IMG/VR virus record: IMGVR_UViG_3300025083_000250
Location: 1-22,252 of that record
Reading direction: 5' to 3' (one strand)
DNA length: 22,252 bases
DNA from: a virus
How positions within the stretch are numbered: position 1 is the stretch's first letter; every line of letters starts with the position of its first letter. Below, piece after piece: positions 2,945 to 8,082 of this stretch. The position numbers were made by a program, and so were the translations under genes. The notes under the pieces were generated by a model. It was not told the DNA's origin. It ran no database searches and saw nothing but the letters and a program-made list of their open reading frames with translations.

Positions 2945-3161
2945 TGTCTTTCTCCATGTGTTCTAAATCTTGAGTTGATATTGCTTGACTACAATGCTGA
3001 GATAAAAACTCAATCATTGCATAGGGTACAGGTGTATGAATATTTTCATAACAATACTCTAGGCAATCAGCTTCTAAGTCTGGTCGACTGTCAAGTACCC
3101 ATAGCTCATGTACATTATCTCTCATGTTGTCCATGATAGTGCTGTTAATCTCGTTACTCAT
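2937..3161 (-). CDS. Hypothetical acidic protein (74 aa)
   Basis: Unrecognised, probably all-helical. It starts MSNEINSTIMDNMRDNVHEL and contains LEADCLEYCYENIHTPVPYAMIEFLSQHC with three cysteines, followed by STQDLEHMEKDNA. A good Shine-Dalgarno (ataGGAGaaactt) sits just upstream of the ATG. The same leader sequence recurs before the 46-aa gene at 4850. It is the first gene after the 407-nt non-coding region and overlaps the GP88-like gene by 8 nt. Confidence 0.75.
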   Translation of the reverse strand: MSNEINSTIMDNMRDNVHELWVLDSRPDLEADCLEYCYENIHTPVPYAMIEFLSQHCSQAISTQDLEHMEKDNA

Positions 3162-3234
3162 AAGTTTCTCCTATAAAATTAAGTGGTAGTTTTTTAGTTC
3201 CGAAGATGACTACCAACTCCTCCAACAGCAACAT
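3154..3234 (-). CDS. Possible leader peptide (26 aa)
   Basis: Short frame on the - strand starting at the ATG at 3234-3232 and ending in a TAA that overlaps the ATG of the 74-aa gene by 8 nt. The product begins MLLLEELVVIFGTKKLPLNF. It covers the Shine-Dalgarno of the next gene, so translation here could regulate that gene in the way of a leader peptide. Against it: no clear ribosome binding site of its own, very short length, and no homologue I can name. Kept at low confidence. Confidence 0.25.
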   Translation of the reverse strand: MLLLEELVVIFGTKKLPLNFIGETYE

Positions 3235-3568
3235 AACTATCGGTTTTTATAGTGCCTGTCAACACTGGTTTTTCAGTAAACCAAACTCCCTATTTTAGAT
3301 TTATACTCACACTCTAGGGACTGATGAGTCTTGTCCATTCCTTACTCGGACAAATTTGTAGTTAGTGCATGGTGGTTTAGTTCTCATTTACTTTTATCCT
3401 TAACTCGCACTTCAGACATATAAGACCAGTGGGATTTTACAAAGGCTCACTCCTAACTACAAAGTGTAGTGGTAGTTTTTTCTCCACAGTAAACTACCAA
3501 ATTCTGCACCTTGTTCTTGAGATACATGGACAGGTATTTTAATCCATGCACTACCTAGATTATTACGA
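3162..3568 (-). other. 407-nt non-coding region rich in inverted repeats
   Basis: No convincing gene. Several pairings are visible. A 10-bp long-range inverted repeat TAGTGCATGG (3363-3372) / CCATGCACTA (3544-3553) encloses most of the right half. Hairpins inside or near it are GGTAGTTT/AAACTACC (3471-3478 with 3491-3498), ACTACA/TGTAGT with a 3-nt loop (about 3456-3470) and TTGTCC/GGACAA (about 3330-3352). A further GGTAGT/ACTACC pair lies at 3185-3190 and 3209-3214, so the GTGGTAGTTTTTT sequence occurs twice, about 285 nt apart. The flanking genes are both leftward, so a structured RNA or processed leader read on the - strand is the simplest reading. No U-tract terminator or convincing promoter was found. 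Confidence 0.4.
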
Positions 3569-3994
3569 CTAGGAATTTAAAGTCATAGGAACTCCAAATA
3601 CTATTCTATTGAATAGTCTTTTAAGATACCCTGTTTCAGTTACATATTTAATATGTTGTAAAGAACTTAGTGTATTGTCAACATTCATTTTTACACGATT
3701 CATTTCAAGTATTTGCATTCCTTTATTTTGTTTAGTTAATGGAATTTTTCTTGAAAAATATAAAGCTCTTTGAGGATTTGATCTTTGACGATAAACTGAA
3801 ACTTTTCCATAATGAAATGAATCAAAAGTCTCGCCTTGCTCATAACCAAATCTATCTTCAATTGCTCTTATTCTTACAATATTTGCATTTAGTTGTTTAT
3901 GTGAAAAGTCCCACAACCATTGTGGAACAGGCGATGCAGTTTTAATAGCTTGAGTAGTTTTACTACCATTTCGACTGTAAGTTGTTTTTGACAT
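3569..3994 (-). CDS. Hypothetical basic protein (141 aa)
   Basis: Unrecognised. The product is basic (many Lys/Arg), starts MSKTTYSRNGSKTTQAIKT and contains PVPQWLWDFSHKQLN (about 22-36) and YGKVSVYRQRSNPQRALYFSRKI (about 62-84). It ends with a helical, Leu/Val-rich stretch (LKRLFNRIVFGVPM). No catalytic motif or membrane segment. A Shine-Dalgarno-like GAGG lies about 9 nt before the ATG. It lies downstream of the promoter at 4273-4302 and the terminator-like hairpin at 4045-4078, so its transcription may depend on read-through or antitermination at that hairpin. Bordered downstream by the inverted-repeat-rich gap. Confidence 0.65.
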   Translation of the reverse strand: MSKTTYSRNGSKTTQAIKTASPVPQWLWDFSHKQLNANIVRIRAIEDRFGYEQGETFDSFHYGKVSVYRQRSNPQRALYFSRKIPLTKQNKGMQILEMNRVKMNVDNTLSSLQHIKYVTETGYLKRLFNRIVFGVPMTLNS

Positions 3995-4044
3995 AATGTA
4001 CTATCCTCATAGTTTAGTATAGTTCCAAAGAACTAAATATTAAT

Positions 4045-4078
4045 AAAAATGCTAGTTATTTGTACCCATCAACTAGCA
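4045..4078 (-). terminator. Intrinsic terminator
   Basis: On the - strand an 8-bp perfect stem TGCTAGTT / AACTAGCA (4078-4071 with 4057-4050), 13-nt loop, is followed at once by TTTTT (4049-4045) and further A/T-rich sequence. It ends the candidate RNA and lies 51 nt before the ATG of the 141-aa gene. A second small hairpin TAGTTC/GAACTA follows at 4020-4035. Confidence 0.65.
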
Positions 4079-4266
4079 ACTGGGAATTTTCTATATAATC
4101 GCAATGATGTCTATATAGATCGGGTGAGTTTCTTGCAGATTGTCTTTAAATTATTGTATGCTGGAGTTTCTCATTATCCCTTGATAAGCAAGTTAATCAT
4201 TATATCCGAGTTTATTATCGGCTCTTTTAATGCTTATCCAAATAAATTGTTGTTGTCTTCGTTTGC
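4045..4266 (-). ncRNA. Candidate structured small RNA or attenuated leader (about 222 nt)
   Basis: Read on the - strand, this stretch begins just after an extended -10 promoter and ends at an intrinsic terminator. No gene-like frame fills it. The + strand 76-aa frame over it has no ribosome binding site and runs against all neighbours. Visible pairings are an 8-bp stem GATAAGCA/TGCTTATC (4231-4238 with 4183-4190), closing over a CCGA/TCGG hairpin (4206-4209 with 4218-4221); CTATATA/TATATAG (4091-4097 with 4112-4118); and the terminator stem. The 5' end is A-rich and unpaired. It could be a free small RNA or the regulatory 5' leader of the 141-aa gene starting at 3994. I do not recognise a known RNA family. 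Confidence 0.5.
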
Positions 4267-4272
4267 TAAAAC

Positions 4273-4302
4273 AGTATAGCATGGCAAAAAACAATCTGTC
4301 AA
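4273..4302 (-). promoter_or_regulatory. Sigma70-type promoter with extended -10
   Basis: - strand: TTGACA (4302-4297), an 18-nt spacer, TATACT (4278-4273) preceded by TG-C, giving an extended -10. The -35 is a perfect match and the -10 has 5 of 6 bases. The expected start is near 4266. It sits directly behind the stop codon of the 86-aa gene and points into the candidate structured RNA. Confidence 0.75.
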
Positions 4303-4313
4303 GCCACCCACAC

Positions 4314-4574
4314 TTAATTTTCATAAGCTAATAAGGTTCCCATATCATAAGGTTCCCAATACCACCCTGCATCATCTAATATTTTTTCTAATTCAGGATG
4401 AATATAATCATTATAGCCACAGCTTTCAAATATAAGCTGATCTTTATAAATATTTCCACTACCTTTAAACCAAATACCTTTGTAAGTATCATTATCATAA
4501 AACTCTGATAATGGAACAGCATTAGCTTTTGGTATTAAACGGTTTATTTTATTAATTAAATGTCCTTGTTTCAT
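4314..4574 (-). CDS. Hypothetical protein (86 aa)
   Basis: Unrecognised function. The N-terminus is basic (MKQGHLINKINRLIPKANAV); the second half is acidic and aromatic, with DTYKGIWFKGSGNIYKDQLIF (about 29-49) followed by IHPELEKILDDAGWYWEPYDMGTLLAY (about 58-84). The latter reads like a compact alpha/beta domain rather than disorder. A weak ribosome binding site (AAGGAAAATT) precedes the ATG. Upstream are about 135 nt without a gene, containing tandem decamers; immediately downstream lies the promoter at 4273-4302. Confidence 0.7.
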   Translation of the reverse strand: MKQGHLINKINRLIPKANAVPLSEFYDNDTYKGIWFKGSGNIYKDQLIFESCGYNDYIHPELEKILDDAGWYWEPYDMGTLLAYEN

Positions 4575-4634
4575 AATTTTCCTTGTAATTTAACATTAGT
4601 TGTGATATAATCTCTATAAAGTTTTATAAAGCTA

Positions 4635-4666
4635 AACAGTAAAGAACAGTAAAGATAACAATAAAG
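4635..4666. repeat. Tandem decamer repeats, iteron-like
   Basis: AACAGTAAAG occurs at 4635-4644 and again at 4645-4654, and a variant AACAATAAAG at 4657-4666. The last copy forms a small hairpin AACAAT-AAAG-ATTGTT with the following bases. It lies in the 135-nt gap between the 46-aa and 86-aa genes. Such arrays can be protein-binding sites or origin iterons; here nothing further supports either. Confidence 0.45.
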
Positions 4667-4709
4667 ATTGTTAAACAGTTGCTCAATACTGCTTAGTCTA
4701 TATAGCTTA

Positions 4710-4850
4710 TCATTTCTTGTCAAAGTTTGTCAAGTCTTGATCAATACTATCAAATTCTTGATATTCATTTCTAAATTCTTCTATGGTTTTAAGTTTTAAT
4801 ACTTCTTGTTCCATAAAATCTTTAAAAACTTCCCAATCATCGTTTTCCAT
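4710..4850 (-). CDS. Small acidic hypothetical protein (46 aa)
   Basis: Starts MENDDWEVFKDFMEQEVLKL and is rich in Glu, Asp, Phe and Trp; probably helical throughout. The Shine-Dalgarno and leader (ataGGAGaaacttATG, allowing for an insertion further upstream) match the one before the 74-aa gene at 3161, which supports real translation. It lies 15 nt downstream of the 106-aa gene, in the same direction. No homologue recognised. Confidence 0.6.
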   Translation of the reverse strand: MENDDWEVFKDFMEQEVLKLKTIEEFRNEYQEFDSIDQDLTNFDKK

Positions 4851-4865
4851 AAGTTTCTCCTATAA

Positions 4866-5186
4866 TTAAAATTCTAATGTTGGAATATTGTAAACACAAT
4901 TGAAAGGATTGTTACCTAATTGAGAATACTTTAAATCTCTAGCTTTGATATTAAAATCATTCAAAGGTGTTTCAATTCTTGTGAAGCCTAAACAAGTTGT
5001 TTGTCTAGGGGATACATTACAATGAGTAACTTCAGAAATATAAAGATCATTTGAAGTTTGCTTGTTGTAATCTTTGGCTTTGTTGATGTAATCCTTGTAA
5101 TTATTAGACTTTACTGTTTGAATACTCTCAACTTGGCGTGAGCCATTTTGATTTCGTTCTTTAAATATATACTTGATTTGTATCAT
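4866..5186 (-). CDS. Hypothetical protein, first gene of the leftward arm (106 aa)
   Basis: Unrecognised. The sequence alternates likely strands and helices (MIQIKYIFKER; VESIQTVKSNNYKDYINKAKDY; DLYISEVTHC) and carries three cysteines (HCNV, TTCLG, FNCVY) without the spacing of a known zinc site. No membrane segment. It has an AGGA ribosome binding site (taAATAGGAAAATCACATG) and is the first gene behind the leftward promoter in the divergent control region, so it is likely expressed early. Confidence 0.7.
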   Translation of the reverse strand: MIQIKYIFKERNQNGSRQVESIQTVKSNNYKDYINKAKDYNKQTSNDLYISEVTHCNVSPRQTTCLGFTRIETPLNDFNIKARDLKYSQLGNNPFNCVYNIPTLEF

Positions 5187-5238
5187 GTGATTTTCCTATT
5201 TAAATATCGGCAACAACATTGTTCCTCGATGTTTTTCT

Positions 5239-5267
5239 ATTTTGGCACGACAAAAAAACTTTGTCAA
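5239..5267 (-). promoter_or_regulatory. Leftward sigma70-type promoter
   Basis: - strand TTGACA (5267-5262), 17-nt spacer, CAAAAT (5244-5239) preceded by TG-C. The -35 is perfect; the -10 matches 4 of 6, partly compensated by the extended TG. It would start transcription about 45 nt upstream of the 106-aa gene and drive the leftward arm. Confidence 0.5.
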
Positions 5268-5314
5268 TACCCCTCTGAAACCTGCGTGGTTGTGGGCTTT
5301 GTTGCAATCTTGTG

Positions 5315-5334
5315 GTTACTATAGTAACTATAGT
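5315..5334. promoter_or_regulatory. Overlapping palindromes, candidate operator
   Basis: GTTACTATAGTAAC (5315-5328) is a perfect 14-bp palindrome, and the self-complementary octamer ACTATAGT occurs at 5318-5325 and again at 5327-5334, nine bases apart. It sits between the divergent promoters and is flanked by the two GTTGCAATC copies. Likely a binding site for a dimeric regulator; the regulator is not in view. Confidence 0.45.
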
Positions 5335-5428
5335 ATTATAAGTCTGATTTATAATGGTCGTTGCAATCCTTTGAATATTTAAGTAATTTTACTAAAAGGG
5401 GCTGAAAAAAAGATTGAAAAAAAATTAT

Positions 5429-5458
5429 TTGACATCTGAAATTTTTTTTTGCTAGAAT
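5429..5458 (+). promoter_or_regulatory. Rightward sigma70-type promoter with extended -10
   Basis: TTGACA (5429-5434), 18-nt spacer, TAGAAT (5453-5458) preceded by TG-C. Perfect -35, 5 of 6 in the -10 and an extended TG: the same design as the promoter at 4273-4302. The expected start is near 5465, so the hairpin and LexA box that follow lie in the initially transcribed region of the 98-aa gene. Confidence 0.75.
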
Positions 5459-5467
5459 GGGTCAACC

Positions 5468-5481
5468 GATCAGAAATGATC
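5468..5481 (+). promoter_or_regulatory. Inverted repeat with U-tract, operator or early attenuator
   Basis: GATCA-GAAA-TGATC: a 5-bp stem with a GAAA (GNRA) loop directly followed by ATTTTTT (5482-5488). It lies a few bases after the expected transcription start, so it could act as a weak attenuator or as a DNA operator beside the LexA box. Confidence 0.4.
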
Positions 5482-5492
5482 ATTTTTTAACA

Positions 5493-5508
5493 CTGTATAT
5501 ATATACAG
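5493..5508. promoter_or_regulatory. LexA (SOS) box
   Basis: CTGTATATATATACAG is a perfect palindrome, matches the gammaproteobacterial LexA consensus CTGT-(AT)4-ACAG at every position, and the flanking bases (CA...TA, 5491-5510) nearly complete the 20-bp version. It lies between the promoter and the ribosome binding site of the 98-aa gene, where bound LexA would block transcription. Low-complexity AT sequence can mimic such sites, but the CTGT/ACAG arms and position argue against chance. Confidence 0.7.
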
Positions 5509-5529
5509 TATTTTATAGGAAAATATAAT

Positions 5530-5826
5530 ATGAAAAAATCTAACTCACAACTAAACGCAGTAGAAACTAGCGATGTTTACAAGTTAATCAATAAGGTCTG
5601 TTGGCATCTAGCTAATGATGTTTCAGATGCACCCAAGGAAACTTCAGCAAAAAAACAAAAATTTGCTGAATTAAGACGGCTAATCAGAGCTGAATTTTTA
5701 ACTTATGATCGAGAAACTAAACTAGCTAGACTGAATAAAGATATTGCAGTCCTTGATAAATATCTAACAGTGAAAAGAATGCCTAAGGCTTTTCAACCTA
5801 GCACTGCAAAAACTAAAAGAATCTAG
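5530..5826 (+). CDS. Putative SOS-controlled hypothetical protein (98 aa)
   Basis: Unrecognised basic, probably all-helical protein. Residues 14-30 (SDVYKLINKVCWHLAND) and 41-78 (KKQKFAELRRLIRAEFLTYDRETKLARLNKDIAVLDKYL) look like long helices; the ends are Lys-rich. No HTH signature I would defend, no membrane segment. It is the only gene of a self-contained unit: extended -10 promoter, LexA box, AGGA ribosome binding site (taGGAAAATATA before ATG) and a strong terminator 19 nt after the stop. LexA control suggests expression after DNA damage. Known LexA-controlled phage genes of this size, such as Tum of coliphage 186, are antirepressors, but no similarity is seen here, so function is open. 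Confidence 0.8.
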   Translation: MKKSNSQLNAVETSDVYKLINKVCWHLANDVSDAPKETSAKKQKFAELRRLIRAEFLTYDRETKLARLNKDIAVLDKYLTVKRMPKAFQPSTAKTKRI

Positions 5827-5844
5827 CAACTAGATTTTTAAATT

Positions 5845-5873
5845 AAAGGGATTCTACGGAGTCCCTTTTTTTT
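5845..5873 (+). terminator. Strong intrinsic terminator with UACG tetraloop
   Basis: Ten-pair stem AAAGGGATTC (5845-5854) / GAGTCCCTTT (5859-5868) with one G-U pair, C(UACG)G loop (5855-5858) and a run of eight T (5866-5873). It closes the 98-aa gene unit. Confidence 0.9.
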
Positions 5874-6310
5874 GTCCAAAATAAACCCCATTTAATCAAT
5901 TTCAATAAATTTAAGTATCAAATATTAAAAATAACTCTGAAGCTCTGAGAAGCTCTGTATTGAACGCTAATATTTTTCTAGTACTTACCTAGCCACCCTA
6001 TACCCTATCGTTTAACAGTGAAGCTCTAAGAAGCTTCTAGCTGTTATTTTGATCTAGTTAACGCCTAGATTTTCATGATCTGTTTAATTTGCTGAGATTT
6101 TAAGGGGTATCTTGCTGCAGTCCTTTTAGTTTCAATAAATTTATTGAGTTCTGTTAAGTCCTACCAAGTACTGAAAATTAAATATTACAGACTTAATAAG
6201 TTTATTTGGAATTGTTAAAACTTTTCAGGTCTCATCAGTCTTGATCGGAACACTTAAAAATTATTGATAGTCTTTTCAAGTCTATTAAGTTTTTGAAGTG
6301 GTGCCCTTAA

Positions 6311-7408: not shown

Positions 7409-7734
7409 TGTTAAAAGAAAGACTACAACTTAGAAAAGGTGGCAAGGCTAAAAAGAAAGACTCAAGACTTGAAAGAGCTGGAGTTAGTGGTTATAATAAA
7501 CCTAAGCGTACACCTAATCACCCTAAGAAATCACATGTGGTTGTTGCCAAAGAAGGTGACAAAGTTAAAACTATTAGATTTGGTGAGCAGGGAGCTAAGA
7601 CTGCAGGTAAACCTAAAGCAGGTGAGTCAGCACGTATGAAAGCCAAACGTAAATCGTTTAAAGCTCGTCATTCTAAAAACATTAAACGAGGTAAAATGTC
7701 AGCAGCTTACTGGGCTGATAAGGTAAAGTGGTAA
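7408..7734 (+). CDS. Small basic conserved marine-phage protein (108 aa)
   Basis: Highly basic. Motifs: RAGVSGYNKPKRTPNHPKKSH (about 23-43), VVVAKEGDKVKTIRFGEQG (44-62), then SFKARHSKNIKRGKMSAAYWADKVKW (83-108). I recall this combination from many environmental phage genomes, where it is uncharacterised; it is most often seen near terminase or structural genes. Charge suggests nucleic-acid binding (inference). Both ends form TAATG overlaps with neighbours. A competing + frame over 7439-7639 is a shadow: this one has the conserved motifs and precise junctions. Confidence 0.8.
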   Translation: MLKERLQLRKGGKAKKKDSRLERAGVSGYNKPKRTPNHPKKSHVVVAKEGDKVKTIRFGEQGAKTAGKPKAGESARMKAKRKSFKARHSKNIKRGKMSAAYWADKVKW

Positions 7735-7907
7735 TGCAACCTCAAGTTGAAAATGCTACACCCGAAGAGTTTGATGAATGGCAACAGACTGAACTAAACT
7801 GGTGGGCAGATAGACAGTTAAGCATTGTTGCTTTGATGTCAGTTGTTCAAGTAGCAGTGTTTGGTTTAATGTTATTAGTATTTTATATAAACTCAAAAGT
7901 ATTTTAA
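7734..7907 (+). CDS. Small C-terminally anchored membrane protein, holin-like candidate (57 aa)
   Basis: Begins at a TAATG overlap. Residues 1-29 are polar and acidic, with three Trp (MQPQVENATPEEFDEWQQTELNWWADR). Residues 30-52 form one uncharged transmembrane helix (IVALMSVVQVAVFGLMLLVFY), and the last five are NSKVF. Single-helix proteins near terminase genes include T7-type holins, and size and position would allow that here. However, no lysin is visible in the window, and the polar N-terminus would also suit a simple membrane anchor. Function is inferred only. Confidence 0.65.
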   Translation: MQPQVENATPEEFDEWQQTELNWWADRQLSIVALMSVVQVAVFGLMLLVFYINSKVF

Positions 7908-7908
7908 T

Positions 7909-8082
7909 ATGGGAAAACAAATAGGAACAGACGAAAAGCCAGTTTCATTTAGAAACCACGTCTATAAAAAATCAGATAGTAAAGGTGCTAATCCTAGACC
8001 AGGATTTTATACGCAAGACTATAGAGATAATTGGGATAGAATATTTGGAGAAAAAAATGCCAAGAAAGAAAACAACAACTAA
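7909..8082 (+). CDS. Small hypothetical protein (57 aa)
   Basis: Starts one base after the previous stop (TAATATG) and ends inside the next gene (26-nt overlap). Product MGKQIGTDEKPVSFRNHVYK continues with SNPRPGFYTQDYRDNWDRIFG-like sequence rich in Asp, Tyr and Trp, a composition typical of small soluble phage proteins. No family is recognised. The frame is supported by junction spacing and by filling the only gap in this run of genes. Confidence 0.6.
   Translation: MGKQIGTDEKPVSFRNHVYKKSDSKGANPRPGFYTQDYRDNWDRIFGEKNAKKENNN

Follow-up and report, generated by a model that had tools for sequence, protein, structure and literature searches.

What does a phage encode in a gap that carries a promoter and several stems and no convincing gene? 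The locus considered here lies in a 22,252-nucleotide stretch of viral DNA, analyzed at its full length and referred to as the window. A sequence-only reading had proposed a new structured RNA with its own promoter, which is borne out: a folded RNA of approx. 190 bases is encoded on the minus strand at 4238-4050 of this marine phage window, behind an extended -10 promoter, and it is conserved as a structure, not as a protein. The RNA is previously uncatalogued and lies outside known families, and both its fold and its conservation can be demonstrated. Promoter and RNA comprise the following elements, in the direction of transcription.

4297-4302, minus strand: -35 box TTGACA (promoter scan; enrichment across homologues)
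4273-4278, minus strand: -10 box TATACT, extended (TG), spacer 18, predicted start near 4266 (promoter scan)
4231-4238, minus strand: P1 5' strand GATAAGCA (strand-pair test, numbers below)
4222-4228, minus strand: conserved single-stranded motif AAAAGAG (AAGAG invariant in 31 of 31 sequences)
4206-4221, minus strand: P2 hairpin CCGA/TCGG, inside P1 (three pairs changed on both sides; 95% paired)
4183-4190, minus strand: P1 3' strand TGCTTATC (strand-pair test and covariation)
4161-4180, minus strand: P3/P4 5' strands GGG, TGAG, CT and CAG (P3 pair 101-165, four Watson-Crick types)
4120-4138, minus strand: P4/P3 3' strands CTG, AG, CTCA and CCC, then invariant GA (helices 4, 5 and 6, 100% of cells paired)
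4090-4119, minus strand: P5 hairpin TCTATATA/TATATAGA, exchangeable domain (six of eight pairs changed on both sides; 76% paired)
4081-4085, minus strand: pseudoknot strand a TCCCA (partner at 4064-4068; compensatory sets in relatives)
4050-4078, minus strand: P6 stem TGCTAGTT/AACTAGCA, whose loop holds pseudoknot strand a' TGGGT at 4064-4068 (H-type pseudoknot)
4040-4049, minus strand: tail TTTTTATTAA (T-run not conserved)

The folding energy of the window RNA as a single sequence is ordinary (z -0.97), and the case for an RNA therefore rests on comparison. Homologues were gathered from IMG/VR by their neighboring genes and by sequence pattern, which yielded 36 distinct full-length, motif-based homologues from an HMO-2011-related group of marine phages. 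Three variants (L096, L104, and L109) have a different 3' stem, and a distant group, type II, comprises L030, L033, L043, and L228-L235. Distant relatives retrieved with a covariance model, the E-values of which are rough, keep the architecture with different sequences. When each phage record was searched whole, it contained one strong match to the RNA.

Covariation was assessed in an alignment of 31 sequences (A2) with a hand-written structure of 45 pairs that includes the pseudoknot. In this alignment, 90.6% of paired cells can pair, compared with 79.0% after shuffling and 31-40% when the partners are slid by one to three columns; since the structure was derived from the same sequences, this percentage alone is biased, and more weight attaches to the number of different compensated alleles. 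The compensatory changes that had been named as the check in related contigs were found: 22 of the 45 pairs show changes on both sides, and the covariation score of 0.282 (0.090 in shuffled alignments) was reached by none of 500 shuffles. In particular, P1 occurs as 16 distinct strand pairs that are 92% paired, as opposed to 54% when strands are crossed between alleles, a difference matched by none of 5000 shuffles. The P3 pair 101-165 is GC in 17 sequences, AU in seven, UA in six, and CG in one, without exception, and the adjoining P3/P4 pairs also change in step; in distant relatives, P3 reads CTGTT/AACAG. The pseudoknot strands a and a' vary in the same manner, with the compensatory sets ACCATG/CATGGT and AACCAC/GTGGTT in homologues and TACTC/GAGTA in type II, of which L231 and L233 combine AGTG/CACT with a GTGGGTA/TACCCAC stem. 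Pairing in P5 is lower (76%), since this domain has been exchanged and several of its alleles are aligned by position only. RNAalifold was uninformative on the raw alignment, as the P1 strands are anchored by distance and not by sequence, and strand-pair tests were used in its place. Within this covarying scaffold lie the conserved unpaired motifs AAAAGAG, AAGGG, GAGAAA/GAAACTC, CCCGA, and AAAT. The three independent stems proposed earlier are all present as P1, P5, and P6, each supported by homologues. The covariation is strong enough to define a new RNA family, in a field in which structured RNAs of phages are poorly catalogued.

It is the structure, rather than a protein frame, that is conserved. 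The RNA strand contains stop codons in all three frames in 36 of 36 sequences, those on the opposite strand are, with one exception, closed too, and the lengths of the 36 sequences fall in all three phases. Coding on either strand is ruled out by these broken frames and lengths. The absence of a known family, also claimed from the sequence, agrees with the searches: the Rfam 15 covariance models gave no family at the gathering cut-off anywhere in the window, and at E<=5 nothing appeared on the RNA strand of the region, where the best match was an opposite-strand snoRNA (18.9 versus 48 bits). ARAGORN matched neither tRNA nor tmRNA in the window, nor tRNA in ten related loci, and the RNA is not described in the main texts of the papers found.

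The near-consensus extended -10 promoter holds up as well. TTGACA-18-TATACT, with TG before the -10 box, has 11 of 12 matches and is joint best among 30 promoter-like sites in 3000-6000, where shuffled sequences contain 15.4 such sites. Across 42 homologous loci, scored in the 90 nucleotides upstream of the RNA with a cut-off of 9.5, a promoter score of at least 9.5 was found in 74%, compared with 7.6% of base-shuffled sequences, and these promoters occur in several unrelated sequence contexts. Thus, most loci have their own promoter directly upstream of the RNA, whereas type II RNAs follow the stop codon of a gene and lack a recognizable promoter.

The 3' end of the RNA had been read as a clean intrinsic terminator, and here the comparison leads elsewhere. 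The hairpin has a 13-nucleotide loop, was not flagged by a terminator scan, and is not followed by a conserved U-tract; it forms instead an H-type pseudoknot in which TCCCA/TGGGT covaries. After P6, the T-run is four or longer in 16 of 36 copies, three in 15, and one or two in the remaining five. The hairpin of the window copy is followed by T5ATT, and some members have five or six T, so that partial termination is possible at their 3' hairpin; a hairpin joined to a conserved U-tract, as in Rho-independently terminated small RNAs, is not a feature of the family. A canonical terminator of quite different appearance (GGGCTACT..AGTAGCC followed by T8-T9) stands directly upstream of the RNA in L073, L180, and L188. 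Moreover, the stem core TTG[GC]TAGT/ACTA[GC]CA recurs 21-40 nucleotides before the start codons, with Shine-Dalgarno (SD) sequences, of many different phage genes. In 29 distinct modules, for which the stem was chosen first and a/a' pairing tested afterwards, the a/a' score was 5.90, compared with 2.93 +/- 0.47 in shuffles (maximum of 1000 shuffles, 4.41); relatedness among the modules, some of which duplicate the 3' domain of the RNA itself, means that the shuffles overstate their independence. Located in 5' UTRs, the recurring modules are predicted to fold as H-type pseudoknots whose last loop is rich in A. A discrete, terminated transcript of approx. 222 nucleotides, as first proposed, is therefore unsupported, because the 3' hairpin is a pseudoknot module shared with the 5' UTRs of other genes. 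One such module is found elsewhere in the window.

3183-3226, minus strand: H-type pseudoknot module, stem GGTAGT/ACTACC, approx. 22 nucleotides before the start of a 74-amino acid gene (listed as L107 2999)

A further H-type pseudoknot-like module with a GGTAGT/ACTACC stem was noticed at 3469-3507 on the minus strand. In the HTVC115P record (L219/L224), a 400-nucleotide non-coding gap at 7518-7922 precedes a gene for an ssDNA-binding protein and holds, near 7798, a possible H-type pseudoknot GTTGG..CCAAC with the stem AGTAGT/ACTACT.

If the RNA does not end at a terminator, its relation to the next gene becomes decisive. That gene lies on the same strand, as listed below.

4003-4008, minus strand: SD-like GAGGAT of the downstream gene (sequence)
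3569-3994, minus strand: 141-amino acid gene (no Pfam or PHROG match; often, not always, follows the RNA)

In most loci, the RNA ends 32-55 nucleotides before the start codon (start codons in IMG/VR loci were annotated in the present analysis), a distance too short to accommodate a further promoter. The RNA thus has the position of a structured 5' leader: on the same strand as, and closely upstream of, a start codon with an SD sequence. Linkage to one downstream gene was considered and rejected. The 141-amino acid family is encoded in 65 loci, of which 44 carry the RNA nearby; it occurs without a detected RNA in L084/L256, L022/L280, L276, and L294-L302, and, conversely, eleven RNA-bearing records, several of them fragments, lack the family (G001, G004, G006, G007, and G009-G015). 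Across loci, the first gene after the RNA is one of at least six that appear unrelated. This independent presence marks the RNA as a cassette that heads a gene without being tied to any single one. The predicted structure of the 141-amino acid protein (mean pLDDT 67) gave no significant PDB match and no functional clue. Particularly informative is L084 (5690-5800; also L256), whose GP88 protein is 96% identical to that of the window and in which the promoter and the gene leader are joined, GGGCAGAAGCCTTCAC then ATTTATTAACC, with the RNA precisely absent. Judged from this junction, L084 appears to be a naturally occurring allele that lacks the RNA and whose promoter directly serves the gene.

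What is observed, then, is a conserved fold with recombining domains (see below), usually directly behind its own promoter and with its end approx. 30-60 nucleotides upstream of a start codon. We consider it the probable explanation, with moderate confidence, that this new modular family of structured RNAs in HMO-2011-related marine phages is the 5' leader of a leftward mRNA and probably a protein-binding element that acts on translation or stability. A cis-acting leader is favored since the RNA stays before a start codon while the gene changes and since L084 lacks it; type II RNAs that follow a gene stop without a recognizable promoter are expected of an intercistronic leader. Under this mechanism, the RNA would be read through into the downstream gene and act in cis. 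The 3' pseudoknot and the AU-rich stretch before the SD sequence might form a platform for an RNA-binding protein of phage or host origin, the binding of which would set translation or stability of the leftward mRNA, and the upstream domains may add affinity or protect the 5' end. As the 3' module is reused before many phage genes, one common factor could coordinate them. The alternative of a leader, raised in the sequence-only reading, has therefore proved the better reading as far as a leader-type element is concerned; its classical attenuator or riboswitch form has not, as neither a terminator nor SD sequestration was found (SD pairing was inspected by eye, and no alternative fold was seen).

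The platform proposed for this leader resembles a known system. The pseudoknot in the leader of T4 gene 32 mRNA is the autogenous translational operator of gp32. In both systems, an H-type pseudoknot precedes an AU-rich stretch that is followed by the SD sequence of a phage gene, and this arrangement can be recognized in the marine sequences. In contrast to T4 gene 32, the marine module recurs ahead of many genes, carries a conserved TTG[GC]TAGT stem, and is joined to P1-P5 in the RNA family; the gene downstream of the RNA carries no ssDNA-binding annotation. It may be speculated, tentatively, that the 5' leaders of these phages hold exchangeable RNA cassettes, in which several unrelated structured RNAs (the RNA of 4238-4050 and a second one at 3463-3355) share a pseudoknot module before the SD sequence, one RNA-binding factor of phage or host origin coordinates many phage genes, and swapped upstream domains tune or diversify the response. 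If the shared module is a common operator, it offers a testable handle on gene coordination in these phages.

A serious rival to the leader, which we hold to be possible and give a minority share of our confidence, is a trans-acting small RNA of the phage, transcribed from its own promoter and set free at the 3' pseudoknot hairpin, either by termination or by processing, to act on host or phage targets; the next gene would then lie downstream merely because phage genes are packed in one direction. The sigma-70-type promoter in about three quarters of loci, the complex multi-domain fold, and T5ATT after the hairpin of the window copy all suit such an RNA. The inconstant downstream gene speaks against a leader, and the independent presence of RNA and gene, including the RNA-bearing records without the 141-amino acid family, also fits action in trans. 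However, the T-tract is not conserved, and in several copies a T-run is absent altogether; termination would be senseless ahead of the start codons before which the same 3' module recurs; type II members lack a recognizable promoter; and the gene has no other promoter between the RNA and its start codon.

A metabolite riboswitch in the leader seems unlikely. Its appeal lies in the highly conserved unpaired motifs inside a covarying scaffold and in a general resemblance to the preQ1-I, SAM-II, and SAM-V riboswitches, in which an H-type pseudoknot with an A-rich third loop lies near the SD sequence. Unlike these, the marine RNA has a longer second stem and leaves the SD sequence outside the knot, and it matches no such family. 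Structured leaders are known in marine phages: the manA and wcaG motifs, recognized by comparative sequence analysis, occur in cyanophage and marine metagenome sequences, in potential 5' UTRs of phage genes (PMC2864571). The RNA described here has no Rfam match and thus belongs to a different family, and it does not precede exopolysaccharide or photosynthesis genes. Neither a constant class of downstream gene nor a conserved expression platform was found: the terminator is unconserved, the SD sequence is apparently free, the downstream genes are apparently unrelated and lack metabolic annotation, domains are swapped between alleles, and no Rfam riboswitch matches.

Processive antitermination by an RNA element early in a leftward operon, in the manner of the put RNAs of phage HK022, is very improbable. 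The RNA does follow a promoter immediately and lies close to the start of the leftward gene cluster, and the strong terminator in L073, L180, and L188 stands just upstream of the unit; against this, type II members lie between genes without a promoter, no downstream terminator that would need to be passed has been shown, and the genes upstream in the window are transcribed in the same direction. Chance hairpins or a protein-coding stretch, for which the ordinary folding energy and a 76-amino acid open reading frame on the plus strand might speak, retain a negligible probability, already refuted by the covariation and the broken frames.

The RNA also has a mosaic history. Among 36 sequences, P1 has 12 alleles, P5 has 10, pseudoknot strand a has five, and the P3 pair has four, and they form 27 domain combinations. 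Four-gamete incompatibilities between P1 and P3, P1 and P5, P1 and the pseudoknot, and P3 and P5, together with these combinations, indicate that domains have been exchanged, apparently at the invariant joints AAAAGAG, AAGGG, CCCGA, and AAAT. As a consequence, tests that assume one tree are not strictly valid for this RNA. This shuffling clearly illustrates, from nature, how an RNA evolves when helical modules are swapped at invariant joints.

Regarding the phage itself, the terminase is closest to those of Pelagibacter phages HTVC115P, HTVC103P, and HTVC104P (68-69%), followed by HTVC033P and HMO-2011-type phages of Roseobacter and SAR116. HTVC033P is an HMO-2011-type pelagiphage, and this group has been described as dominant in the ocean, with a broad distribution (PMC9038755). 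The cultured phages HTVC115P, HTVC103P, HTVC104P, and HTVC033P contain no convincing copy of the RNA (best E 0.32), blastn searches with the region and with L126 revealed no homologue among deposited phages, and an exact-pattern search found no copy in bacterial genomes. The sole blastn match, in crAss-like phage cr53_1, was rejected as a short AT-rich chance match. Phage cr53_1 (L217) carries three Hatchet ribozymes and a RAGATH-14 RNA at 1301-2219 and 4110-4258, most of them inside a 2.2-kb region in which no genes are annotated. GOLLD, ROOL, and similar large RNAs resemble the marine RNA in being ornate, phage-carried, and of obscure role; the latter is far smaller, occupies a leader position, has no tRNA in ten related loci, and lacks an Rfam match.

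Other RNAs appear to be encoded in these phages. A second conserved structured RNA lies at 3355-3463 of the window (minus strand), with a closing stem of approx. 10 bp (TTTGTAGTTAG/CTAACTACAAA), a core that hardly varies, and an inner hairpin that does; it has no Rfam match and is present, at differing positions, in 15 or more related loci. A possible third leader element (GAAAACTTCCTA.. GGTGGAAG..) was noticed in L206 (approx. 890-1000) and L113 (approx. 5690-5830), where it adjoins pseudoknot modules and is sometimes in tandem with the RNA of 4238-4050.
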